From Cyclobacteriaceae bacterium (GTDB taxonomy: Bacteria; Bacteroidota; Bacteroidia; Cytophagales; Cyclobacteriaceae), in the NCBI GenBank assembly GCA_947458475.1, contig CANGZP010000011.1:1-48044 (forward strand): a stretch of 48,044 nucleotides of DNA, given 5' to 3'. Both the position numbers and the translations under genes were made by a program. Below are positions 13,473 through 26,432 of the stretch, piece after piece; the stretch's first letter is position 1, and each line of letters opens with the position of its first letter. The notes under the pieces were generated by a model that was given only the letters and a program-made list of their open reading frames with translations, did no database searches and was not told the origin of the DNA.

Positions 13473-14074
13473 TGTTCAATTCGCCGTGGTAGTTCAACCT
13501 GCCTTCGGCAGGCAGGCCCGTTCCGGCGGGTTGGGATTCCCTATCCTCGGGTTTAGCTGTCTTCGGTAGGTTCACCTACCTTCCGCAGGTTTACCTGCCG
13601 AGGCAGGGTCCACCTACCTTCCCCAGGTTTCACCTAGGGTTATTCAAGGTTTGACCCGCGGTGGCGGGTCTTACAGTAAAAATGGATAACATGGGTAGAT
13701 AGAATTGAGAACTCTTCCCCAAAGCGGTAATTCCAATTTTGATTATGCAGGATCCGCCGTGGAGGATCCAACTTATGAATAACCCTGGTTGAACCCGCGG
13801 TGGCGGGTCTTTTCGATAGGAGGGATCTGATTATGCATGACCCGCCCGGCGGGTCGAGCCATGAATCGCGGCGGGTTTACCTACCCATTCTGTTCAATCT
13901 ACCGCGGTAGTTCAACCCGCGGTGGCGGGTCTTTTCGAGTGAACGGATTTGATTATGCATGACCCGCTCGGCGGGTCGAACCATGAATCGCCCCGGGTTG
14001 ATCCGGCACAGCGGATCAACCCGGGGAATATGGACTACTAATGGAATTCCCGACCCGCCGTGGCGGGTCGAACT
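13473..14074. repeat. Palindrome array A, upstream of the HUH transposase
   Basis: About 600 nt of GC-rich imperfect palindromes. Stems include GACCCGCGGTGGCGGGTC (13653-13670), GACCCGCCCGGCGGGTC (13839-13855), GACCCGCTCGGCGGGTC (13961-13977), GGATCCGCCGTGGAGGATCC (13750-13769) and a nested GTTGATCCG/CGGATCAAC flanked by CCCCGG/CCGGGG (13991-14026). Fixed linkers recur between them: GATTATGCA (13741, 13829, 13951), ATGAAT, TCTTTTCGA and TATGGACTACTAATGG (14029-14044). No coding potential is credible. It ends 76 nt before the transposase start. The same module order occurs in arrays B and C. Confidence 0.85.
13498..13516. repeat. Short hairpin repeat CCTGCCTTCGGCAGGCAGG
   Basis: A compact palindrome, CTGCC-TTC-GGCAG followed by an extra GCAGG, inside array A. 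Relatives are at 25043-25061, 26129-26147, 26391-26410 and 28492-28510. Confidence 0.6.
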
Positions 14075-14150
14075 TGACGCCATCTCTTGCAACTGTGGCT
14101 TAATTTTTTTTAATTGAATTAACTTAATTTTTTCAACTAAATATTTTTTT
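14075..14150 (+). promoter_or_regulatory. AT-rich leader of the transposase gene
   Basis: A sharp change from GC-rich palindromes to AT-rich sequence (TTAATTTTTTTTAATTGAATTAAC region at 14100-14150) directly before the transposase ATG. It probably carries the promoter, but no perfect -7 box is seen. Confidence 0.35.
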
Positions 14151-14603
14151 ATGCCTACCCATACCCATACCCAGCTAATTTATCACATCGTCTTTTCAAC
14201 AAAATATAGAGAACCCACGATTGAGAGGGACCAGAAAAAGAGATTGTTTGCTTTTATTTATCAGTTGCTCATCAATAAAAAATGCCATCTCTATCGGATT
14301 AATGGGGTTGAAGATCATATTCATATTGTAACCCATATTCCTCCCTCTCTTACAATTTCATCCTTAGTAAAAGATATCAAGGTTTCGAGCGGGCTTTTTA
14401 TACAGAGAGAAGCAATCTTCAAAAATTTTAAGGGATGGCAAAATGGATATGGAGCTTTTACTGCAAATTTTGCCACGAAAGATCGACTTATCAATTATGT
14501 GAAAAATCAGGAAGTGCATCATCAAAAGAAATCGTTTTTTGATGAATACAAAGGGCTTCTTGAGGAACATGGGATTGCATTCGATGAAAAATTCTTACGC
14601 TAA
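14151..14603 (+). mobile_element. tnpA: IS200/RAYT-like HUH (Y1) transposase flanked by palindrome arrays
   Basis: A 150-residue Y1 single-strand DNA transposase. The HUH motif is His56-Ile-His58 in VEDHIHIVTH, and the nucleophilic tyrosine is Tyr116 in LINYVKNQEVHHQKK; Gln120 four residues later is the usual metal ligand. The N terminus (THTQLIYHIVFSTKYREP) is typical of the IS200/IS605 and REP-associated (RAYT) families. All catalytic residues are present, so it could be active. The gene is noticeably AT richer than its flanks. It lies between palindrome arrays A and B; array B begins at the base after the stop codon. No TnpB or IscB gene accompanies it. RAYT is favoured over a simple IS200 because of the dispersed palindromes elsewhere in the window. 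Confidence 0.9.
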
Positions 14604-14998
14604 GTTCAACCTGCCTAGGTGGTTCAACCCGCGGTGGCGGGTTGGTGGATTCCTGTCCTCGGGTTTAGCTCTCATCCCCAGGTTCACCTACCTTCCCCAG
14701 GTTTCACCTGTCTTCGGTAGGTTTCGCCTACCTTCCCCAGGCTTCACCTGGGGTTATTCAAGGTTTGACCCGCGGTGGCGGGTCTTTTAGAGAACTTATT
14801 TGATTATGCATGACCCGCCCGGCGGGTCAAACGCATGAATATCCATGGGTGCAACCCATGGAAAAGGACTACTAATGATGCTCAGGACCCGCTATTCGGG
14901 TCCAACCATGAATCGCCACAGGTTGACCCGTCACAGCGGATCAACCCGTGGACTATGGACTACTATGCGATATCCCGACCCGCGCGGGTCTAACCTGC
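14604..14998. repeat. Palindrome array B, downstream of the HUH transposase
   Basis: About 395 nt in the same module order as arrays A and C: GTTCAACCCGCGG hairpin, TCCTCGGGTTTAGCT, a series of AGGTTCACCTACCTTCCCC units, TTATTCAAGGTTTGACCCGC hairpin (14766-14783), GATTATGCA (14802-14810), GACCCGCCCGGCGGGTC, ATGAAT, CCATGGG/CCCATGG hairpin (14843-14861), GGACTACTAATG, then further hairpins ending with GACCCGCGCGGGTC. It starts immediately after the transposase stop codon. Short open frames inside are chance products of the repeats. Confidence 0.85.
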
Positions 14999-15158: not shown

Positions 15159-15539
15159 ATGATTTTAATAACCAGTTTGTTCACCCTTCTCCTTCGCCTG
15201 TCCCTATTGGGTCAGGGACCAGGGGAAGAAGTGCCACTTGACTGGCCTTCAATTTTAGCTGCAGCATCACCTGTTTCCCCCTCTGTAAATGGAGAACATC
15301 TAGAACCTGTTTATGGATCGTTTAATGGGATTGGTACCTTAGTTCCTTGTATTGAAGTAGAGGAAAAAGTAGAAGTTGAATCCGAGAGCATCACCTCCTT
15401 TTTACTACTTCATTCTTCCAAGTTTGTTCGAAAAGAACAATTGGCTGGATTCCTTTCCATTTTTGGAAATAAGGCCATTCGGGGTAGTCTTTTGCCTCTT
15501 TATGATTTTTTTCATACCTGGAAAATTCACCTGAGCTAA
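15159..15539 (+). CDS. Hypothetical small protein upstream of dabA
   Basis: A 126-residue product I do not recognise. The N terminus (ILITSLFTLLLRLSLLG) is hydrophobic and could be a signal peptide or single membrane anchor; the middle is acidic (VEEKVEVESES) and the C-terminal third is basic and helical in character (FVRKEQLAGFLSIFGNKAIRG...FFHTWKIHLS). It lies 86 nt before dabA on the same strand, and that gap holds a perfect 20-bp palindrome. It may be part of the carbon-uptake transcript, but coding status rests only on length, composition and position. The sequence before it (14999-15158) is AT rich and without clear features. Confidence 0.5.
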   Translation: MILITSLFTLLLRLSLLGQGPGEEVPLDWPSILAAASPVSPSVNGEHLEPVYGSFNGIGTLVPCIEVEEKVEVESESITSFLLLHSSKFVRKEQLAGFLSIFGNKAIRGSLLPLYDFFHTWKIHLS

Positions 15540-15559
15540 TTTTTTTTGCCCATTAAGGC

Positions 15560-15579
15560 TATTCCTGAATTCAGGAATA
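15560..15579. promoter_or_regulatory. Perfect 20-bp palindrome before dabA, possible operator
   Basis: TATTCCTGAATTCAGGAATA is perfectly self-complementary and lies 46 nt before the dabA start. There is no T run after it and no loop, so it is a better candidate for a dimeric regulator site than for a terminator. No regulator gene is adjacent. Confidence 0.45.
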
Positions 15580-15625
15580 AAACTGCCGTTGTCTAGACGG
15601 AATTTCTCACTCAGAATTTTATACC

Positions 15626-18118
15626 ATGCATCATCATTCCACGCATCAGGGGATGGCTGTGGAGGACATACTTCCTTTGTTGAAGCATTTCCTTCCTGCT
15701 CAGGCTCCATTGAAGGACTTTGTCCATCACAATACGCTACATGCTTTTCAGCATCTCCCTTTTTTTCAAGCACTTAAACAAGCAAGTGCACAGTTTGGAT
15801 ACAGAGGATTTTTGCCTCTGGAGCAGTACCGGAACTTGTACGGAGAAGGAAAAATTAAAGGCCAGGTTCTCCAACGAATTTTGGAAGAGCAATTCGGAGA
15901 CCAAGCCAATGGTTGGCTGGTCAAACTCTTAGACGAATCCCAAGAAAGCCCTTCTGCTTCCAAAATAGGCCAATTTAGAGGGCTTTGGAAGCAGGAATAC
16001 CATTACAATCTCGATAAAGTCACCCATCCATTTTTATTTCGCTTGCTCGCGGCCTATTTGGACCAAGGGATCTCTATTTGGTCCTTTCCTCTGGAATCCA
16101 AGGGATTTTTGGAGGCGATACGTGGCCTACAGCGAGACAGCTTTTCGGCTATTTTCACCTCGAAAAGAGCCATCTCCTTACTTCAGAAGCGAGACCTTGG
16201 TTTGGAAGATGTCTTGCAGGTGCTGGTCGGCCATTCGGACAGCTATGCCTGGTATCTTTTGGATCAGCAGTTTGCGCATCCAGGCTGGTCGGGAATGGTG
16301 TCTGTGCTCGAATCTCAGCCAGAATCCTTGTTGGACACCAAGCCAATCGCATTGGAGGACTTCATTCTTGTGGAGTGCCTGTTGGAAATTGATGCCCTAG
16401 ACAAAAAGTTTGGAGATTCATGGGTGCCTTTGGGTATTCAATTTCCTTTTTCAAGTCAGGAATGGTTGGAAATTAGCTTGTTCAGTAGCTCAGATTTGGT
16501 TCTGCAAACTTGGCAAGAGGCCTACGAATGGAGTTACTACGACGAAGTATTGGCAGGAATCAAATCGGTGGAACCTTTGCCATCTTTGGGTTCGGTTCCC
16601 AGCTTTCAAGCTCTCTTTTGTATTGACGACCGAGAATGCAGCACGCGTAGGCATTTGGAGTACATCGACCCTCATTGTGCAACCTATGGGACACCAGGGT
16701 TTTTCAACGTAGAGTTTTACTTTCAGCCAGAGTATGGGAAATTCCATACCAAATCTTGTCCCGCACCGGTTACCCCCAAATTTCTAATCAAGGAGACGGC
16801 CAAGCATAAAAAGCTGGCTTCGGATGTCCACTTTCACCAGCGAAGCCATTCCCTAGTTCGTGGATGGTTGAGTGCCCAAACGCTTGGATTTTGGTCTGCT
16901 TTACGTCTTATAGGCAATGTATTCCGGCCTAGTTCCTCCGTCTTGGAAGTGTCGAGCATGCACCACATGGACCCCAAGGGAAGCCTCTCCATCCTGTACC
17001 AAGGCGAAGAAAATGGCTTACAAGTAGGTTTTAAGGTAGAAGAAATGGCAGACCGCATCGAAGGATTGCTGCGAAGCATTGGTTTGGTGGATGGATTTTC
17101 TCCGCTGGTCTACTTGATTGGCCACGGTGCTTCAAGTATCAACAATACGCACTATGCAGGATACGACTGCGGTGCTTGCTGTGGTCGGCCTGGTTCGGTC
17201 AATGCGAGAGTGGCTGCCTTTATGGCCAATCAACCTGGAGTGAGGCAACTTCTTCTGCAAAGAGAAATTGACATTCCAGCCTCCACTCAATTTTTGGGAG
17301 GCCTACACGACACCACAAAGGATGAATTGCTGTTTTTTGATGAAGACATCCTGAATTTTGAAAACCTGAAGTTGCATCTTGAAAATCAAAGGAAGTTTGT
17401 ACGTGTCTTGGATATTAATTCACTAGAGCGATCGCGTCGATTCGACACCTTGGATAAAAATAAATCCATTGGTGGACTTCACGAAGCGGTTAAAAAACGA
17501 GCGTTTTCCCTCTTTGAACCGCGTCCAGAATACAATCATGCTACCAATGCGCTTTGTATTGTGTCTCGAAAATCCACGATCAAAGGATTGTTTTTTGACC
17601 GAAGGGCTTTTCTCAACTCCTATGACTACCGCCAAGATCCAGACGGTGTATCCTTAACCAAAATTCTATCTGCCGCCATCCCGGTTTGTGGTGGGATCAA
17701 TCTGGAGTATTATTTCTCTCGAATGGATCCAGACAAGTTGGGCGCAGGAACCAAGCTTTCTCACAACGTGATGGGCCTCATCGGTGTAGCGAATGGAGCA
17801 GATGGGGATTTGCGAACAGGGCTTCCGTACCAGATGGTAGAAATACACGACCCTATTCGTTTGCTGATGGTGGTAGAGCAGGATCCGGCTTTGGTGGCAA
17901 AGGTGCTCGAATCTAATCCAGGAATTCATGAGTGGGTGAAAAATACTTGGGTTCATTTCGTGGTCATTGATCCTAGTACAGGGGAATTGCTTCGAAGAGT
18001 AGATGAAAAATTCATTCCATATCTCCCACTCACCGAAGTCGAGCATTTGGATCATCTCCAAGACAAGCTCTTAAGTACGCAACAAAACCTTCCCGTGTAC
18101 CTAATCGATTCGCTCTGA
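15626..18118 (+). CDS. dabA: Inorganic carbon accumulation protein DabA (DUF2309)
   Basis: Cytoplasmic, membrane-associated subunit of the DAB bicarbonate/CO2 accumulation system; it resembles beta-carbonic anhydrases and is thought to hydrate CO2 one way, powered by the ion flux through DabB. The 830-residue protein carries the expected zinc site: Cys332 and Asp334 in FCIDDREC, His500 in LIGHGAS and Cys515 in GYDCGACCGRPGS; the spacing (2 between the first pair, 15 between the last pair) equals that of the characterised Halothiobacillus protein. The N-terminal part LKDFVHHNTLHAFQHLPF is also a family hallmark. Its TGA overlaps the ATG of dabB by one base, so the pair is translationally coupled. 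Confidence 0.95.
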   Translation: MHHHSTHQGMAVEDILPLLKHFLPAQAPLKDFVHHNTLHAFQHLPFFQALKQASAQFGYRGFLPLEQYRNLYGEGKIKGQVLQRILEEQFGDQANGWLVKLLDESQESPSASKIGQFRGLWKQEYHYNLDKVTHPFLFRLLAAYLDQGISIWSFPLESKGFLEAIRGLQRDSFSAIFTSKRAISLLQKRDLGLEDVLQVLVGHSDSYAWYLLDQQFAHPGWSGMVSVLESQPESLLDTKPIALEDFILVECLLEIDALDKKFGDSWVPLGIQFPFSSQEWLEISLFSSSDLVLQTWQEAYEWSYYDEVLAGIKSVEPLPSLGSVPSFQALFCIDDRECSTRRHLEYIDPHCATYGTPGFFNVEFYFQPEYGKFHTKSCPAPVTPKFLIKETAKHKKLASDVHFHQRSHSLVRGWLSAQTLGFWSALRLIGNVFRPSSSVLEVSSMHHMDPKGSLSILYQGEENGLQVGFKVEEMADRIEGLLRSIGLVDGFSPLVYLIGHGASSINNTHYAGYDCGACCGRPGSVNARVAAFMANQPGVRQLLLQREIDIPASTQFLGGLHDTTKDELLFFDEDILNFENLKLHLENQRKFVRVLDINSLERSRRFDTLDKNKSIGGLHEAVKKRAFSLFEPRPEYNHATNALCIVSRKSTIKGLFFDRRAFLNSYDYRQDPDGVSLTKILSAAIPVCGGINLEYYFSRMDPDKLGAGTKLSHNVMGLIGVANGADGDLRTGLPYQMVEIHDPIRLLMVVEQDPALVAKVLESNPGIHEWVKNTWVHFVVIDPSTGELLRRVDEKFIPYLPLTEVEHLDHLQDKLLSTQQNLPVYLIDSL

Positions 18119-20019
18119 TGGAACTATCAAATTGGATTCAGCTGATGATTGGGATACCTCTCCTCGGCTTTTTGATTAGTTTGGCTATCCCTGAAAGTAA
18201 GGAAACCTGGCTTTCTCGTGTGGCATTTTACACCGCAGGAATTAACCTCTTGAGTACCTTGGTTTTCCTTTGGTTCTGGGTTTTGCAAGGAGGGATGGAC
18301 CTCAATTTCAAAGAAATTGTACTTTTCAAAAATGAGCATTTCGAGTTTTTGGTAGACTTTTTCTTTGACAGGGTCAGTGCAGTATACCTCATTGTAGGGG
18401 CAATACTCACCTTCCTAATCACCTTTTACAGTAGGTATTACCTACATCGCGAGCCAGGATACAAGCGGTTTTTCAATACAGTCCTTTTCTTTTATTTGGG
18501 TCTCAACCTGACTATCCTGGCAGGAAATTTTGAAACGCTCTTCATCGGATGGGAAGTATTGGGTCTGTCCTCCTTTTTGTTGGTGGCCTTTTACCGCAAA
18601 AATCTCCTTCCGTCTCGTAATGCGATCAAAGTATTTTCCATTTACAGAATTGGGGACGTGGGATTGATTTTGGCCATGTGGGCGAGCCACCACCTTTGGC
18701 ATGCGAATGTTACCTTTTTGGATTTGACAGATGTACAGCGGGTTGTCGATCAGCAGCTCGGTCATTCAGGTATTGCGCTTTTTATTGGATTGATGCTGCT
18801 TCTGGCGGCTGCTGCCAAATCTGCGCAATTTCCTTTTTCCTCCTGGTTGCCAAGGGCGATGGAAGGCCCTACGCCTTCATCAGCCATCTTTTATGGATCG
18901 CTTTCGGTGCATTTGGGCGTTTTCTTGCTCCTACGAACCTATCCTTTCTGGGAAAATCAGTTAGTTGTTCGAATCCTGATTGGGGCTATTGGACTGATTA
19001 CGGCAGTAGTATCTACGATGATTGCTCGGGTGCAAACCTCTGTAAAAACGCAAATTGGCTATGCTTCGCTAACTCAAATTGGGATTATGTTTATTGAAGT
19101 TGCGGCAGGTTTGGAACTGTTGGCCTTGATCCACTTTGCTGGAAATGCATTCCTTAGAACCTATCAATTGCTTGTTTCCCCTTCAGTAGTCAGCTACTTG
19201 ATCCGGGAACAGTTTTATGGATTTGTTCCCAAACAAAAGAAGGTAGTGCGCACTTGGTGGAATCGACTTTACCTTTCCATTTATGTTTGGAGTTTGAAAG
19301 AGTGGAACCTGGACCGTTTCATTCAAGGAAGGGTTTTTAGTCCCTTAAAGAAGTTGGGACATCGCCTTGATTTTCTGAGGTATCGTACCTTGCTCTTGTA
19401 TTTTATCCCCAGTTATGCAGTTGGGGTATACTTACTCGTTGAAGGCTACGAACTTCCTACTTGGCTACACCAAATTTTACCCGTTGTATTTGCATTTCTA
19501 GCCCTATTGATGGTATTGAAATCTTTTACCGAGCGTAGGTCCATTCGTTTGGCCTGGACGTTGTTGTGGATGAACCATTTTTGGATGGTACTGGCTATTG
19601 CTGAGAATGAAAATTTTGCAGCAACTGAAATTGCAATTTACCTCAGTGGCGTTGTCTTCTTCGGTACACTGGGCTGGGGGTTAATTATTTGGATGACCAA
19701 GAAACATGGAGATCTTGGCCTGTATGGCTACCAAGGCTATGTTCGGCAACATCCATTGGTAGCTTTTCTATTCCTATTGGCAGTGTTGGGACTCATTGGG
19801 TTCCCGATATCCCCTACGTTCATCGGGGAAGATTTGCTTTTCAGCCACATCCATGAAGATCAGTTTGTGCTCGCATTTCTAGCGGCTTTGGCCTTCGTGA
19901 TGGAGGGGGTTGCTGCGATACGCATCTATGCACGTCTCTTTTTGGGGACTGTACCTGATCTCAATATTGGGTCTCATTCTACCACTTTGCCAACGGCAAA
20001 CACAAAAAAGATTGCCTAA
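18118..20019 (+). CDS. dabB: DabB, NuoL/MrpA-like ion-translocating subunit
   Basis: Polytopic inner-membrane protein of 633 residues from the proton-conducting antiporter family of complex I and Mrp. It is the partner of DabA and is thought to let protons (or sodium) in to energise CO2 hydration. Family motifs are visible: LFIGWEVLGLSSFLLVAFYR with the membrane glutamate, LLLLAAAAKSAQFPFSSWLPRAMEGPTPSSAIFYGSLSVHLGVFLL with the functional lysine region, and TQIGYASLTQIGIMFIEVAAG. The length is closer to NuoL than to the shorter DabB proteins, with extra C-terminal membrane segments (after residue 400). It overlaps dabA by one base and is followed after 46 nt by the SulP gene. Confidence 0.92.
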   Translation: MELSNWIQLMIGIPLLGFLISLAIPESKETWLSRVAFYTAGINLLSTLVFLWFWVLQGGMDLNFKEIVLFKNEHFEFLVDFFFDRVSAVYLIVGAILTFLITFYSRYYLHREPGYKRFFNTVLFFYLGLNLTILAGNFETLFIGWEVLGLSSFLLVAFYRKNLLPSRNAIKVFSIYRIGDVGLILAMWASHHLWHANVTFLDLTDVQRVVDQQLGHSGIALFIGLMLLLAAAAKSAQFPFSSWLPRAMEGPTPSSAIFYGSLSVHLGVFLLLRTYPFWENQLVVRILIGAIGLITAVVSTMIARVQTSVKTQIGYASLTQIGIMFIEVAAGLELLALIHFAGNAFLRTYQLLVSPSVVSYLIREQFYGFVPKQKKVVRTWWNRLYLSIYVWSLKEWNLDRFIQGRVFSPLKKLGHRLDFLRYRTLLLYFIPSYAVGVYLLVEGYELPTWLHQILPVVFAFLALLMVLKSFTERRSIRLAWTLLWMNHFWMVLAIAENENFAATEIAIYLSGVVFFGTLGWGLIIWMTKKHGDLGLYGYQGYVRQHPLVAFLFLLAVLGLIGFPISPTFIGEDLLFSHIHEDQFVLAFLAALAFVMEGVAAIRIYARLFLGTVPDLNIGSHSTTLPTANTKKIA

Positions 20020-20065
20020 CTAACTAATTAAAGACTTTAAAAGAGGGCGTAGGTCCTAAAATAAT

Positions 20066-21661
20066 ATGAAAATAACAGCAAAAACGCAGGTGCCCAAAGA
20101 CGGTTGGGCTGGGTTAAAAGAAAATTTCGCTGCGGATGCCACCGCAGGGTTTGTGGTATTCTTGTTGGCCATGCCCTTGAGTTTGGGGATTGCCAAAGCC
20201 TCAGATTTTCCGCCCATAATGGGTTTGGTTACTGCCATCATTGGCGGTATTTTAGTTAGTGTCATTTCTGGTTCACGCTTGACGATCAAGGGACCTGCTG
20301 CAGGACTTATTGTGGTCGTTGCCGGAGCAGTAGCTGCTTTTGGAGGTGGAGAGACCGGTTGGAAGTTCGCCTTAGGAGCCATGATCGTTGCTGGATTAGT
20401 TCAGGTGTTATTCGGCCTGTTCAAGTTTGGGAAGTTGGTGGATGTGTTTCCACTTTCTGCCATTCATGGGATGCTAGCTGCCATAGGGATCATTATCATT
20501 GTGAAGCAGATACCCGTATTTTTGGATGTCAATCCCGAGCTATACAAAGGGATGAGTACAGTGGCTATGATCAAGGCAATCCCGACCTTTTTCGCCAATT
20601 TTGATCCTAGAGCCACGCTTATCGGGGTTTACAGTCTGTCCATCATGCTTGGCTGGCCTTACCTTAAGGACTTTACCTTAGGTAAAATTCCAGCGCCATT
20701 GATGGTTTTGCTGGTGGCAATTCCTTCGGAGTTGGCCATGGATTTTGCGCATACCGAGCCTCCCTATGCCTTGTTGCATATTGGTAATTTGATGGACAGT
20801 ATTTCCTTGCACACTGATTTTTCTGGAGTTTTTCAGACCGGAACCTTTGTAAAGTATGTGATCATGTTTGCCCTTGTGGGTTCGCTTGAGTCCTTGTTGA
20901 CCGTGAAAGCTATTGACCTTGCAGATCCTTACCGAAGAAAGTCCAATACGAACAAGGACTTGATTGCTGTCGGTGTGGGAAATACAGTAAGCGCATTTTT
21001 GGGTGGATTGCCGATGATTTCTGAGGTGGCTCGTAGTTCTGCGAATGTCAACCAAGGTGCCAAAACCCGATGGGCCAATTTCTTCCATGGGATATTTTTG
21101 CTTGTGTTTGTGCTTGTTGCCACACCAGTAATCGAGATGATCCCGAATGCTGCCCTTGCGGCCATGCTTATTTCTGTGGGTATCAAATTGGCCCACCCAA
21201 AGGAATTCATCCATACCTTCCATATTGGGAAGGAACAGTTGGCTATTTTCTTGGTCACCATCTTTTTTACCCTCGTCGAAGATTTGCTCATCGGTATTGC
21301 AGCAGGGGTCCTGTTGAAAATGATCCTGCACCTAGCCAAAGGCACTCCGATTTCCTCCTTCTTCAAGGCACCTACTGTGGTGTCCTTTAACAATAATCAG
21401 TATTTGGTTGAAATAGATAAGGCGGCTATTTTTTCCAACTATTTGGGAATCAAACGAAAATTGGAAGAAATTCCAGCGGGATTTAATGTTACCATTGATT
21501 TAAAAAACACCAAATTGGTGGACCATTCGGTCATGGAGAATCTACATCGTTTTCAGGAGGACTACAAAGAAAATGGTGGAACCGTAAAAATCATCGGATT
21601 GGAAAAGCACCAACCTGTTTCGGATCATGCGCTTGCCGCTCGAAAGGTAATCGCGAGTTAA
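20066..21661 (+). CDS. SulP-family inorganic anion (probably bicarbonate) transporter
   Basis: A 531-residue SLC26/SulP permease: about twelve membrane segments beginning with the family region ADATAGFVVFLLAMPLSLGIAKASDFPPIMGLVTAIIGG (residues 23-61), SGSRLTIKGPAAGL, and a C-terminal STAS domain from about residue 435 (DLKNTKLVDHSVMENLHRF). SulP proteins carry sulfate, bicarbonate or dicarboxylates. Position directly behind dabA-dabB points to bicarbonate, as in BicA-like systems; this is inference from context. Gap to dabB is 46 nt without a terminator, so it is probably in the same operon. The following DUF2490 gene starts 33 nt later. Confidence 0.92.
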   Translation: MKITAKTQVPKDGWAGLKENFAADATAGFVVFLLAMPLSLGIAKASDFPPIMGLVTAIIGGILVSVISGSRLTIKGPAAGLIVVVAGAVAAFGGGETGWKFALGAMIVAGLVQVLFGLFKFGKLVDVFPLSAIHGMLAAIGIIIIVKQIPVFLDVNPELYKGMSTVAMIKAIPTFFANFDPRATLIGVYSLSIMLGWPYLKDFTLGKIPAPLMVLLVAIPSELAMDFAHTEPPYALLHIGNLMDSISLHTDFSGVFQTGTFVKYVIMFALVGSLESLLTVKAIDLADPYRRKSNTNKDLIAVGVGNTVSAFLGGLPMISEVARSSANVNQGAKTRWANFFHGIFLLVFVLVATPVIEMIPNAALAAMLISVGIKLAHPKEFIHTFHIGKEQLAIFLVTIFFTLVEDLLIGIAAGVLLKMILHLAKGTPISSFFKAPTVVSFNNNQYLVEIDKAAIFSNYLGIKRKLEEIPAGFNVTIDLKNTKLVDHSVMENLHRFQEDYKENGGTVKIIGLEKHQPVSDHALAARKVIAS

Positions 21662-21694
21662 CCCGATCAGGTGAAATTCTAAATCGCACGAACC

Positions 21695-22477
21695 ATGAAT
21701 GCAAGGCGCTCAATTTTCTGCACGATCGTCGTGCTAGGCCTATTTTTCAATCCATCATTTGGGCAAAACAATCGGCTGAACACTTCCAATCAAATTGGTT
21801 GGTATACCTATTTTGGAACCTTCAAGCTCTCCAATAAACTAGGTTTGCATACGGAATATCAATTTCGGAGAACTCCGGCAATCACCGATTGGCAGCAGAG
21901 TTTGTTGCGTCTAGGATTGAACTACCAGCTTCATCCTGCTATCCAAGTAAGGGTAGGCTATGGCTGGATAGAAACCTTTCCTTATGGAGAATTTCCATTG
22001 AATGGGTTTGGGAAGCAATTTACCGAGCACCGGATTTTCCAGATGGCGCAGCTTTCCCAAAAAGTAGGCAAGGTGGACTTTTCACACCGATTTATGCTCG
22101 AACAGCGTTTCGTGGGGAGGTATGCCTCCGCCAATGCGACACGGGAAGTCGATTTTCCATTGCTTCACCGAATGCGGTACATGGTTCGGATGCAAGTGCC
22201 CTTGAAAGGAAATGAGATCCAAGATAAAACTCCGTATCTGGCTGTCTACGATGAGGTATTTGTCGGTTTTGGGGAAAATGTAAACGTTAATGTGTTTGAC
22301 CAAAATCGAATAGGCGTTTTACTAGGATTTCGCTTTTCTAAAAAATTCAGATTGGAAGGCGGTTACCTTAACCAGACCCTGCAGTACGGAAGGCTGATCA
22401 ATGGGAAAAATGGTTTTCAATACAATAATGGGTTGATTATCAATTCAAATTTCACGCTGGATTTGACGAAAAAGTAG
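21695..22477 (+). CDS. DUF2490 outer-membrane beta-barrel protein
   Basis: A 260-residue secreted protein: signal peptide MNARRSIFCTIVVLGLFFNPSFGQ with cleavage probably after the Gly or Gln, then alternating amphipathic strands (LGLHTEYQFRRTPAITDWQQSLLRLGLNYQL, IQVRVGYGWIETFPYGEFP, TEHRIFQMAQLSQKVG) ending with an aromatic-rich strand, as in DUF2490 barrels. It is likely in the outer membrane. It is the last gene of the dab-sulP group, 33 nt after the transporter, so it might be an outer-membrane accessory of inorganic-carbon uptake; the function of the family is not known. Palindrome array C starts 17 nt after its stop codon. Confidence 0.8.
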   Translation: MNARRSIFCTIVVLGLFFNPSFGQNNRLNTSNQIGWYTYFGTFKLSNKLGLHTEYQFRRTPAITDWQQSLLRLGLNYQLHPAIQVRVGYGWIETFPYGEFPLNGFGKQFTEHRIFQMAQLSQKVGKVDFSHRFMLEQRFVGRYASANATREVDFPLLHRMRYMVRMQVPLKGNEIQDKTPYLAVYDEVFVGFGENVNVNVFDQNRIGVLLGFRFSKKFRLEGGYLNQTLQYGRLINGKNGFQYNNGLIINSNFTLDLTKK

Positions 22478-22494: not shown

Positions 22495-22783
22495 GCGGCG
22501 GGTTTACCTACTGGTTCTGTTCAACACGCCTTGGCGGGTTGGGATTCCTTTCCTCGGGTTTAGCTGTCTTCGGTAGGTTCACCTGCCGCGGTAGGGTTCA
22601 CCTACCTTCCCCAGGTTTCACCTAGGGTTATTCAAGGTTTGATCCGCCGCGGCGGATCTTTTCGAGAGAATGGATTTGATTATTCAGGACCCGCTCGTCG
22701 GGTCAAACTTATGAATAACCATGGGAGAATCCCATGGTATATGGACTACTAATGGTCCTCAGGACCCGCTCGGCGGGTCCAAC
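22495..22783. repeat. Palindrome array C
   Basis: A 289-nt array in the same module order as A and B. It shares GCGGCGGGTTTACCTAC...TTCTGTTCAA with 13868-13896 of array A. The central hairpin is GATCCGCCGCGGCGGATC (22640-22657) where A and B have GACCCGCGGTGGCGGGTC: both arms changed together. It continues with TCTTTTCGAGAGA, GATTATTCA, GACCCGCTCGTCGGGTC, CCATGGG/CCCATGG, TATGGACTACTAATGG (22740-22755) and GGACCCGCTCGGCGGGTCC. No gene or transposase is next to it. Confidence 0.85.
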
Positions 22784-24912: not shown

Positions 24913-25097
24913 TAACGGATATTCTTTACTCGATTTCCTAATAGGGTTTTTTCTTTTTCTCGTAAAGACTTAGAGCCGCAATGGGGTTTATTCTTGGTTC
25001 CTTCCAACTGAAAGTAGTTCGCCAAGGGGTTAATTCTTTGCGCCTGCCCTCCGTGGCGGGTCCTTCCGAGAAAAAGAAGAATAAAAATTTAAGCTAC
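24913..25097. repeat. Degenerate intergenic repeat (TTCTTTGCGCC family)
   Basis: The gap between yceI and the toxin-antitoxin pair holds a decayed copy of the repeat at 26122-26432: TTCTTTACTC, CTCGTAAAGACT, TTCGCCAAGGGGTTAATTCTTTGCGCCT (25020-25047 area) and the short hairpin CCTGCCCTCCGTGGCGGGT at 25043-25061. No gene is seen. Confidence 0.5.
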
Positions 25098-25406
25098 TTA
25101 TTTAAACTCAACTTTAAAGTTTAGAAAGCCTCCAAGCCCGTCTTGGATGATACGCATCAATGTGGATAGCCGGATGTCACTGGCATTGTTCTCTATTCGA
25201 GAAATGTAATTTTTTGTGGTTCCACACTTCTCTGCCAATTGCTCTTGTGTAAGCCCTTTCTCTTTTCGAAGTTCCTGAAGCATGACCCCAAGTTTGAAGG
25301 CCTCAAATTCCTGTTCATACCGCTCTCGTCCCAAGCTCCCAGGAGTGCCATATTGACTATCCAAGTGATCTGAAAATGAAGTGATCTTAGTTTTTTCTGT
25401 TTTCAT
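25098..25406 (-). CDS. XRE-type antitoxin (HigA-like)
   Basis: A 102-residue DNA-binding protein. The Cro/CI helix-turn-helix occupies about residues 38-93: [49 protein letters not shown]. The first 35 residues are polar and probably form the toxin-neutralising arm. It follows the toxin gene, with 20 nt overlap, the inverted order typical of HigBA. It is expected to bind and repress the shared promoter upstream of 25740. Confidence 0.88.
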
Positions 25407-25740
25407 CGAAGTAGTGTTTTTTTAGTTTTTCGGCGAGTTCAATTTCTTTTTTTGGAGTCTTTTGGGTCTTTTTTTGGAAACCATTGATGAGAATAATCAG
25501 GTTGCCTTTGTCAAAGAATGCAAACACCCGGTAAATGTCAGATCCCTGTTCTACCCGTATTTCATTGAGTCCGTCTGATTGACTCAAATGCTTGAAATAC
25601 TTTATGGGTACCTTAGCTATGGAGGCGATTAGTTGCAGCGTCCAGTTAAACCTTTTCTTGACTTCAGGTTTCAGGGTTTCGAAAAATTCCAGATAATAGG
25701 TTCCGTAATACAGGATTTCGCGAAAATTCTTGGTATTCAT
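25387..25740 (-). CDS. RelE/HigB-like toxin (Gp49 family)
   Basis: A 117-residue basic protein of the RelE/ParE fold, Gp49-like group. Diagnostic stretches are [10 protein letters not shown]-like [17 protein letters not shown], then [61 protein letters not shown]; the last part ([10 protein letters not shown]...E.A) is the conserved C-terminal helix region of HigB-type mRNA interferases. It probably cleaves mRNA on the ribosome. It is the first gene of the pair, and the pair sits between two blocks of intergenic repeats, suggesting mobility or recent acquisition. Confidence 0.88.
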
Positions 25741-25899
25741 GTTGCCGTTAGCTAATGCAAAGTTACCTAAATAGGTAACATTTTGCGAATTTTAAAAAAT
25801 AATTTGAGTACTTAATTACTGGTAATAGATTGAAAAAATTCCAATTAGATGTTTAGGATAGAGTTTATCAATTTTTGGAATAAAATTTTAGCTCTTAAT

Positions 25900-26015
25900 G
25901 ACCCGCTGGGGCGGGTCAAACTTTGAATTGCCCTGGGTTGCACCCGCCTTGGTGGGTGTAATCCGGGGGATGGAATAAATAGTTGTTTTGGAAGACCCGC
26001 TAGGGCGGGTCTAAC
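25900..26015. repeat. Palindrome array D (short, partly decayed)
   Basis: Two outer hairpins, GACCCGCTGGGGCGGGTC (25900-25917) and GACCCGCTAGGGCGGGTC (25994-26011), enclose a long nested hairpin CCCTGGGTTGCACCC / GGGTGTAATCCGGGGG whose mismatches are all G-T type. It shares the stem class and flanking AAAC/TAAC and TTGAAT pieces with arrays A-C but lacks the TATGGACTACTAATGG linker. Confidence 0.7.
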
Positions 26016-26121
26016 CCTACACCACAAAAAAATAATTTCGGATACCAAAGACCTGTTGCAGTTCAATAGTCTGCATTGATTTTTTTTATTTTTAGTTTTG
26101 CGCCACGGCGGGGAATCATCC

Positions 26122-26432
26122 CTTTGTGCCTGCCCTCCGTGGAGGGTCTTTGCGAGAATAAATATTTTAAAAAGCTATAATGCGCGCAAAGGCGCCAAGC
26201 CGCAAAGGAGTATATTCTTTACTCCTCCCCATGTAAGGTAGGCCGCCAAGGAATTAATTCTTTGCGCCTCTGCGCCTTTGCGAGAATACATATTTCAAAA
26301 GTTATAATGCGCGCTAAGCCACCAAGGAGTTTATTCTTTGCGCCTTCCCACGGAAAGTAGGACGCTAAGGAGTTAAGTTTATTCTTTGCGCCTGCCTACC
26401 GCAGGCAGGTCTCTGCGCCTTGGCGAGCTAAT
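26122..26432. repeat. Three tandem copies of a ~130-bp TTTGCGCCT repeat
   Basis: Copies begin at about 26122, 26260 and 26384. The consensus is CTTTGCGCCTCTGCGCCTTT, then GCGAGAATAnATATTT, AAAAGnTATAATGCGCGC, then CCAAGGAGTTTATTCTTTG. The first and third copies have a 16-17 nt GC-rich hairpin inserted right after CTTTG(C/T)GCCT (26129-26147 and 26391-26410); the second does not. Repeats made of CGCAAAG-like words are common between genes in Bacteroidota. Confidence 0.7.

Follow-up and report, generated by a model that had tools for sequence, protein, structure and literature searches.

The stretch of Cyclobacteriaceae DNA analysed here (the window, 48,044 nt, which is contig 11 of a 2.77-Mb, 188-contig source genome that is about 79% complete) carries what we take, with a probability of about 0.7, to be a REPtron-like system, in which a low-copy TnpA with the motifs of TnpA_Y1 subclass 1.2 is enclosed by its own composite REP and acts on it, and in which the repeat units spread while the gene rarely moves. 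Four arrays, A to D, are all built from one half-unit of about 90-100 nt, called the arm; two of them enclose the transposase gene (Table 1), and long direct repeats are common to arrays A, B and C. Arrays C and D both match the arm model R1, C as a full unit and D as a single arm, in agreement with the first-pass annotation, which had described them as transposase-free copies. The arrays outlined there proved to be real, while their borders were shifted: array A opens with the GTTC at 13474, array B ends at about 14994, and array C is best placed at 22519-22783. The extra internal hairpin copies of array A lie at about 13738-13999. The neighbours of array C are presumably a DUF2490-like gene on one side and a Rieske-like gene on the other. 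A further repeat family, rich in 'TTTGCGCCT' (D4, D10, D12, D16), was observed at 24961-26420 and by eye is unrelated to the arms; a pair of genes that we take to be HigBA-like is located at 25098-25740, inside this 'TTTGCGCCT'-rich region.

Table 1. Positions of tnpA and of the arrays in the window (R1, arm model; z, DNA fold score against n dinucleotide shuffles)
Feature	Position	Strand	Content	Basis
Array A, upstream unit	13474-14073	+	left arm, right arm, extra internal hairpin copies between	R1 matches 13570-13672(+) and 13959-14073(-), weak match 13748-13859(-) at E 0.005; fold z -7.7 (n=20)
Leader	14074-14150	+	AT-rich, from array A to tnpA start codon	sequence
tnpA	14151-14603	+	Y1 HUH transposase, TnpA_Y1 subclass 1.2 motifs	150-aa intact ORF
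Array B, downstream unit	14604-14994	+	left arm, right arm, possible extra half arm	R1 matches 14622-14786(+) and 14809-14906(-), 14907-14994(-) at E 0.28, not significant; fold z -8.7 (n=100)
Array C	22519-22783	+	complete unit without transposase	R1 matches 22558-22660(+) and 22685-22783(-); fold z -6.7 (n=200)
Array D	25898-26015	-	single three-hairpin arm	R1 match, E 4e-5; fold z -5.85 (n=200)

A complete Y1 transposase had been proposed to lie between arrays A and B, and this was confirmed by the intact 150-aa reading frame, by matches of its product to Pfam (Y1_Tnp, E 2.9e-24) and NCBIfam (IS200 NF033573, E 2.5e-21), and by an alignment of 11 proteins, the window TnpA and relatives, in which H56, H58, Y116 and Q120 are invariant. 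The catalytic residues align by sequence with those of the ISHp608 transposase (PDB 2a6m). Array B begins, as also stated in the first pass, at the base after the stop codon (14601-14603), namely 14604, and opens with GTTCAACC; in several relatives an arm likewise starts right after the tnpA stop codon. The motifs of the window TnpA are D55-H56-I-H58, W96-Q97 and Y116---Q120--H123-H124 (Y116VKNQ). In the accessible text of the published classification, subclass 1.2 enzymes are characterised by DH[IV]H, WQ and Y---Q--HH, a length of about 148 aa and low copy number, are found mostly in Cyanobacteria and Bacteroidetes, are entered as 'REP: no' and are generally without terminal structures (PMC6006769). 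The window TnpA has the same three motifs and shares with that description the length (~148-150 aa), the occurrence in Bacteroidota and the low copy number, the gene of its clade (clade A) being present once or twice per genome in 23 of 72 genus genomes; where a genus genome holds two clade-A genes, the two are clearly unlike, either in how closely they match the query or in how complete they are. It departs from the description, as far as the accessible text goes, in that three-hairpin arms flank most of the close relatives tested (76 of the 79 best listed TnpA loci) and in that further phyla are included (PMC6006769). We read the presence of arms as an omission in the published description rather than as evidence against a motif-based placement, and by its motifs the window TnpA would fall into TnpA_Y1 subclass 1.2. 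According to the same text, the automatic search targeted GTAG/GTGG-tagged single hairpins, with some classes also inspected by hand, and it is plausibly for this reason that the DNA partner of subclass 1.2 was missed (PMC6006769). Identity with a class 2 RAYT was rejected, since the Y---NP motif is absent and Y116VKNQ is found instead; the class 2 repeat type was rejected as well, as there is no GT[AG]G tag at a single hairpin but a GTTC tag and a three-hairpin arm. The proposal of a RAYT/REP-like system therefore holds for the pairing of a transposase with multi-hairpin repeats, for their REP-like behaviour and for the repeats away from the gene, but not for the enzyme, whose motifs are those of subclass 1.2.

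At E<=1e-25, five Y1 genes of the TnpA kind are present in the window's genome, and a sixth match is distant. The C124 gene is 76% identical to the window TnpA and has the same arm type, making it a second clade-A copy, and the C83 gene, of sister clade B, has three-hairpin arms with the tag GTTTC and a different linker, while the palindromes flanking the C28 and C49 genes are other, simpler ones. One transposase clade thus corresponds to one repeat family. Two Y1 genes of this genome other than tnpA (L004 and L005) were observed to be flanked by dense single-hairpin repeats, of the GCTCCGGAGC type and the CACCCCTTCGGGGTTTT type, which are mutually different.

The anatomy of the arm was derived from the DNA on either side of the clade-A TnpA genes of the genus. 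From 5' to 3', the arm consists of a GTTC[A/G]AC-hairpin 1, a spacer of ~25 nt, hairpin 2, the sequence [C/T]TATT[C/G]A with a short linker that usually ends GTT[C/T]GA, and hairpin 3. A unit is an arm, a spacer and a second, inverted arm, so that the unit itself is a six-hairpin palindrome. The earlier description of several hairpins in a fixed order was therefore sound: there are three per arm, and their stems covary in both the genus and the cross-phylum alignments. In the genus alignment A1 (n=40, comprising 37 of 39 genus arms, two disturbed ones having been dropped, and three from the window's genome), 93.4% of cells pair in the three stems, with a covariation of 0.355, which falls to 0.155 after shuffling and to no more than 0.095 after sliding. 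In hairpin 2, whole stems are swapped (for example CCCTAGGT/ACCTAGGG, CCCCCGGT/ACCGGGGG and CCATGGGT/ACCCATGG). The cross-phylum alignment A3, which was fitted to the model and contains the best 150 of 250 matches, from 54 of the 79 best listed loci, showed pairing in 95.6% of cells, 526 double-change cells compared to 144 when shuffled, and a covariation of 0.567 (0.180 shuffled, at most 0.097 slid). DNA folding of arms at five loci (L158, L199, L207, L218 and L221) yielded three hairpins each.

The outer edge was located in 50 arms from 20 loci, where the conserved part opens at GTTC (G in 48/50, TT in 50/50 and C in 48/50), position -1 before it is A in 37/50, and the flanks outside are mostly unrelated. 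A motif like GGAATTTGTAATTCC was found at most 50 nt outside the edge in 8 of 28 arms with a GTTCA tag and in 0 of 22 with a GTTCG tag (shuffled flanks expect 0.05 per 50 arms), so the unit edge is not wholly sharp. The loci with this GGAATTTGTAATTCC-like motif are L058-L063, L067, L073 and L075, and the motif may be a further part of the unit, a preferred target or another repeat. Used as a genome-wide marker, GGACTACTAATG gave 8 matches, below the 15 of its reversed control.

We then looked beyond the genus at the 79 best TnpA loci kept from a scan of genome contigs (40-74% identity). The first-pass annotation had named a transposase found elsewhere with unrelated flanks as the observation that would speak against the pairing; model R1 matched at E<=0.01 within 1.5 kb of the gene at all but three of these best listed relatives (L197, L210 and L222), L158 (Algoriphagus boritolerans, NZ_FNVR01000016), L159 and L164 having also supplied arms to the model. 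A (-) arm ends at most 250 nt upstream of tnpA at at least 62 of the 79 best listed loci and a (+) arm starts at most 150 nt downstream at at least 52, with both present at at least 44 and either at at least 70. With a stricter motif (hairpin 2, TATT[C/G]A and hairpin 3), 41 of the 79 best listed loci had at least one positive flank, and 55 flanks were positive compared to 0.7 expected in shuffled flanks. Matches at E<=0.1 occurred in 2 of 30 control loci, one being array D itself (L024) and the other a weak match at L005, which belongs to another Y1 clade of the same genome. Titles of records among the 79 name Balneola, Calditrichia, Melioribacteraceae, Verrucomicrobia, Pontiellaceae, Phycisphaerae, Hydrogenedentes, Acidobacteria and Deltaproteobacteria; the pairing is thus present in records of many other phyla and not, as first supposed, a matter of Bacteroidota alone.

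Model R2 gave matches in all 20 genomes behind loci picked from the 79, a set that was our own choice and includes the congener G008 again. In fourteen of the 20, the arms numbered 7 to 85, and this group includes Saprospiraceae, Balneolaceae, Siphonobacter, Calditrichia, Melioribacteraceae, Phycisphaerae, Hydrogenedentes, Acidobacteria and Deltaproteobacteria records; the other six, including all three Verrucomicrobia-titled ones, contained only 2-6, which may all surround tnpA. The listed arms of the Phycisphaerae and Hydrogenedentes MAGs lie on many contigs, so that one misbinned contig is no explanation for these two MAGs. The 18 top-scoring arms of the Phycisphaerae MAG, on 13 contigs, differ at few positions; two of them (L287 and L288) share flanks and may be one duplicated stretch. 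Short tandem repeats in variable number adjoin the Phycisphaerae arms (L276-L293) on both sides, indicating that the units there carry minisatellite-like spacers.

The gene itself often occurs in a (-)tnpA(+) arrangement, and the (-) arm upstream and (+) arm downstream at those 44 or more of the 79 best listed loci would fit an IS200-like insertion sequence with elaborate ends, whose mobile entity is (-)arm-tnpA-(+)arm and whose MITE-like deletion derivatives are the inverted pairs without tnpA. Such tags-inward (-)(+) pairs were indeed found, 11 in six genomes (G287, G145, G324, G183, G332 and partly G113), with gaps of at most 20 nt and three pairs overlapping. We nevertheless consider this explanation unlikely, since tnpA is low in copy number and two genes in one genus genome clearly differ, and since tnpA of Algoriphagus is flanked on both sides by (+)(-) units with tags outward, of the same type as elsewhere in the genome. 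Multiple near-identical tnpA copies, a trait of IS200/IS605 elements, were not found in the 72 genus genomes, where the clade-A gene reaches one or two copies per genome. The HUH-Y1 core, judged from the protein sequence, and the DNA hairpins flanking the gene are shared with IS200/IS605 elements (IS608 and others, subclass 1.1), whereas the present system differs in not being multi-copy, in having three-hairpin inverted arms in place of small subterminal hairpins, and in having gene-free units. Most isolated arm pairs in Algoriphagus are (+)(-) with tags outward (exceptions are L069 and L074), as are L250, L252 and L254 from the same set as the tags-inward genomes; the mobile ends may differ between lineages, or one polarity may be a by-product. 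The tags-inward unit at L243, and less clearly that at L251, sits within longer flanking inverted repeats, as if inserted in a palindrome.

Within the genus, 72 genomes were sampled, one per species, several of which share their loci with named Algoriphagus records (G008 with A. boritolerans, for instance), and clade-A TnpA was scored as present at E<=1e-48, together with the contig-split gene of G060. At E<=0.001, R1 found arms in 63 of the 72 genomes, the counts per genome being lower bounds (part of the candidates was scored) and the model E-values rough. Genomes with clade-A TnpA (n=23) contained 3-56 arms, with a median of 20, and those without it (n=49) contained 0-37, with a median of 5 (Mann-Whitney p 5e-6, species not independent); for genomes at least 99% complete, 18 with and 31 without, the medians were 18.5 and 5 (p 0.006, species again not independent). 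An even draw of 296 genomes of the same class, with arms called at E<=1e-4 and 14 candidates scored per genome, showed arms in 45: 15 of the 16 genomes with TnpA at E<=1e-42, a cut-off picked after seeing the data, compared to 30 of the 280 others (Fisher p 8e-13). The one close-TnpA genome of the 16 that yielded no arm was G152. With a looser cut-off of E<=1e-15, the fractions were 40/139 and 5/157 (p 3e-10). Some of the 30 arm-bearing others hold related genes with internal stop codons (G183, G206 and G357). Equal abundance of arrays without the transposase, which the first pass had put forward as the outcome that would undo the association, was therefore not observed at either level. Its suggestion that array-bearing genomes always carry the transposase failed, and strict co-occurrence is ruled out: at least 17 arms were found in 10 of the 49 congeners without clade-A TnpA. 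A TnpA of sister clade B, 40-43% identical, is present in four of these ten; in G067, with 31 arms, no related Y1 gene was found at E<=0.01, which indicates that the transposase is not needed for the arms to persist.

Persistence in transposase-less genomes also speaks for passive structural repeats, that is, for arms that are an intergenic element used by the host (in transcription termination, at mRNA ends or in DNA architecture) beside which tnpA inserts or survives, as do the many old copies, one of which is at the same site in G067 and G033. This is quite improbable given the tnpA adjacency at at least 70 of the 79 best listed relatives in many phyla, the strong association of arms with TnpA across the class, the near-identical copies at separate places, and the Y1 genes of different clades that, in one genome, each have their own palindromes. 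Copies at least 92% identical at distinct loci of the same genome were found for 8 of 40 arms (3 of 8 genomes) with TnpA and for 0 of 27 without (Fisher p 0.018), the 92% line having been set after seeing the data. All comparisons of copy identity used the highest-scoring arms and not a random draw. When genomes with and without TnpA were compared, the best same-genome arm identity gave p 0.07, and the best same-genome minus the best other-genome identity gave p 0.008. A copy in the own genome was closer than that of any other species for 11/40 arms in TnpA genomes and 2/27 in TnpA-less ones; in a separate clustering of TnpA-less genomes, the best same-genome match beat other genomes in 5/43 arms. 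For most genus arms, copies in other species are thus at least as similar as those in their own genome, indicating that most are old. When the G067 and G033 pair was used to read insertion boundaries, its flanks were not alignable.

Sites with and without units were compared between genomes of the genus. At the cassette site of the window, G064, G066 and G058 have an empty allele, G045 and G060 have a unit but no tnpA (only one arm of G060 matching the model), and G000 and G065 have unit-tnpA-unit; G044 and G056, with no arm match, were left out of the allele assignment. The empty alleles keep GTTCA, so they may be either pre-insertion targets or deletion scars. The site of array C is occupied in G000, G066, G045 and G060 and without arms in G064, G058, G044, G042 and G040, with debris seen by eye in G065 and perhaps in G034. 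Arrays B and C form direct repeats on either side of a four-gene block at 15159-22477, the genes of which we take to be dabA, dabB, sulP and a DUF2490-like gene. This block is absent in G055, G061 and G062, where the DJ-1 and Rieske genes adjoin. The block-less junction has the left flank of the cassette site and the right flank of array C, and between them lies array sequence (G061 and G062) or debris recognised by eye (G055). The simplest reading is that the block was likely lost by recombination between arrays, and the arrays probably help to delete the dabAB-sulP operon.

That the arms act as structured RNA, regulatory or as a guide for the transposase, is highly improbable. The fixed hairpin order and conserved single-stranded linkers do resemble ncRNA, and an arm directly follows the tnpA stop codon in the window and several relatives, but no credible Rfam match covers the arrays, the arms are inverted and lie on both strands, and of 2259 paired cells only 23 are G-T, even though a transcript of the opposite strand would have G-U at 64 cells that are A-C here. 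Over the arrays, Rfam gave no match at gathering, and for ten loci only an implausible miRNA (E 0.017); a known RNA family was rejected. A-C mismatches outnumber G-T mismatches whichever way the arm is oriented (22 to 9 and 42 to 14), so no strand can be named from them.

For the REPtron-like reading, we propose that the DNA recognised would be the arm of three hairpins (the tag with hairpin 1, hairpin 2 with unpaired CTATTCA, and hairpin 3) rather than one hairpin, and that two inverted arms would make up a REPIN-like mobile unit. When the unit is single-stranded, for instance on the lagging-strand template, each arm would fold into its three hairpins, leaving the tag and CTATTCA linker exposed. 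The pair of arms would be bound by a dimer of TnpA, Tyr116 would nick near the foot of the tagged hairpin, and the single-stranded unit would be excised or copied and then joined into another single-stranded site. TnpA would in this way spread the units and seldom its own gene, and units may later persist as relics, even after the gene is lost.

Class 2 REPtrons, in the accessible part of their description, are the closest working analogue (PMC8266576). As far as the accessible texts go, the two systems have in common a low-copy Y1 gene with palindromes on both sides, clade-specific repeat families, inverted doublets, copies elsewhere without tnpA, and a tag at the 5' foot of a hairpin (PMC8266576, PMC6006769); inverted repeat doublets away from the gene, as in REPINs and BIMEs, were found here. 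By the same partial account, they differ in the enzyme (Y---Q--HH here, Y---NP in the REPtron; PMC6006769), in the tag (GTTC here, with ATTC, GTAC and GTTTC in other lineages, compared to GT[AG]G), in the REP itself (a ~90-100 nt three-hairpin arm compared to one hairpin of 21-65 nt) and in copy number, which is lower here, though our counts are lower bounds. Class 3 TnpA_Y1 of Planctomycetes, Acidobacteria and Proteobacteria differs, in the accessible text, by NHVH, YV[VI][AENY]EQ and the tag CnGA, and no three-hairpin arm was found described for it there (PMC6006769). The accessible portions of two further papers deal with GTAG and CGTC families and their dimers, with no three-hairpin arm (PMC3733652), and with a RayT gene near abeS, with no mention of palindromes (PMC11194056). 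The open literature searched contained no recognisable description of the three-hairpin repeat, which may still be described elsewhere.

On balance, and with some reserve, we also favour a wider reading, in which HUH enzymes with subclass 1.2 motifs would be a REPtron lineage of their own, independent of the class 2 RAYTs and distributed across many phyla, with a conserved three-hairpin arm and its unpaired TATTCA linker as substrate, a composite recognition signal. If this is true, it would be a second way in which an IS200-type transposase becomes a genome-resident repeat system. The finding gives a DNA partner to enzymes whose subclass, in the accessible text, was published as having none (PMC6006769), provides a defined, covariation-backed three-hairpin candidate substrate, and shows REP-type organisation in a further, second branch of the Y1 family and in many phyla. 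Overall, the occurrence of the pairing in many distant groups points to a family of probably mobile repeats that had been overlooked.
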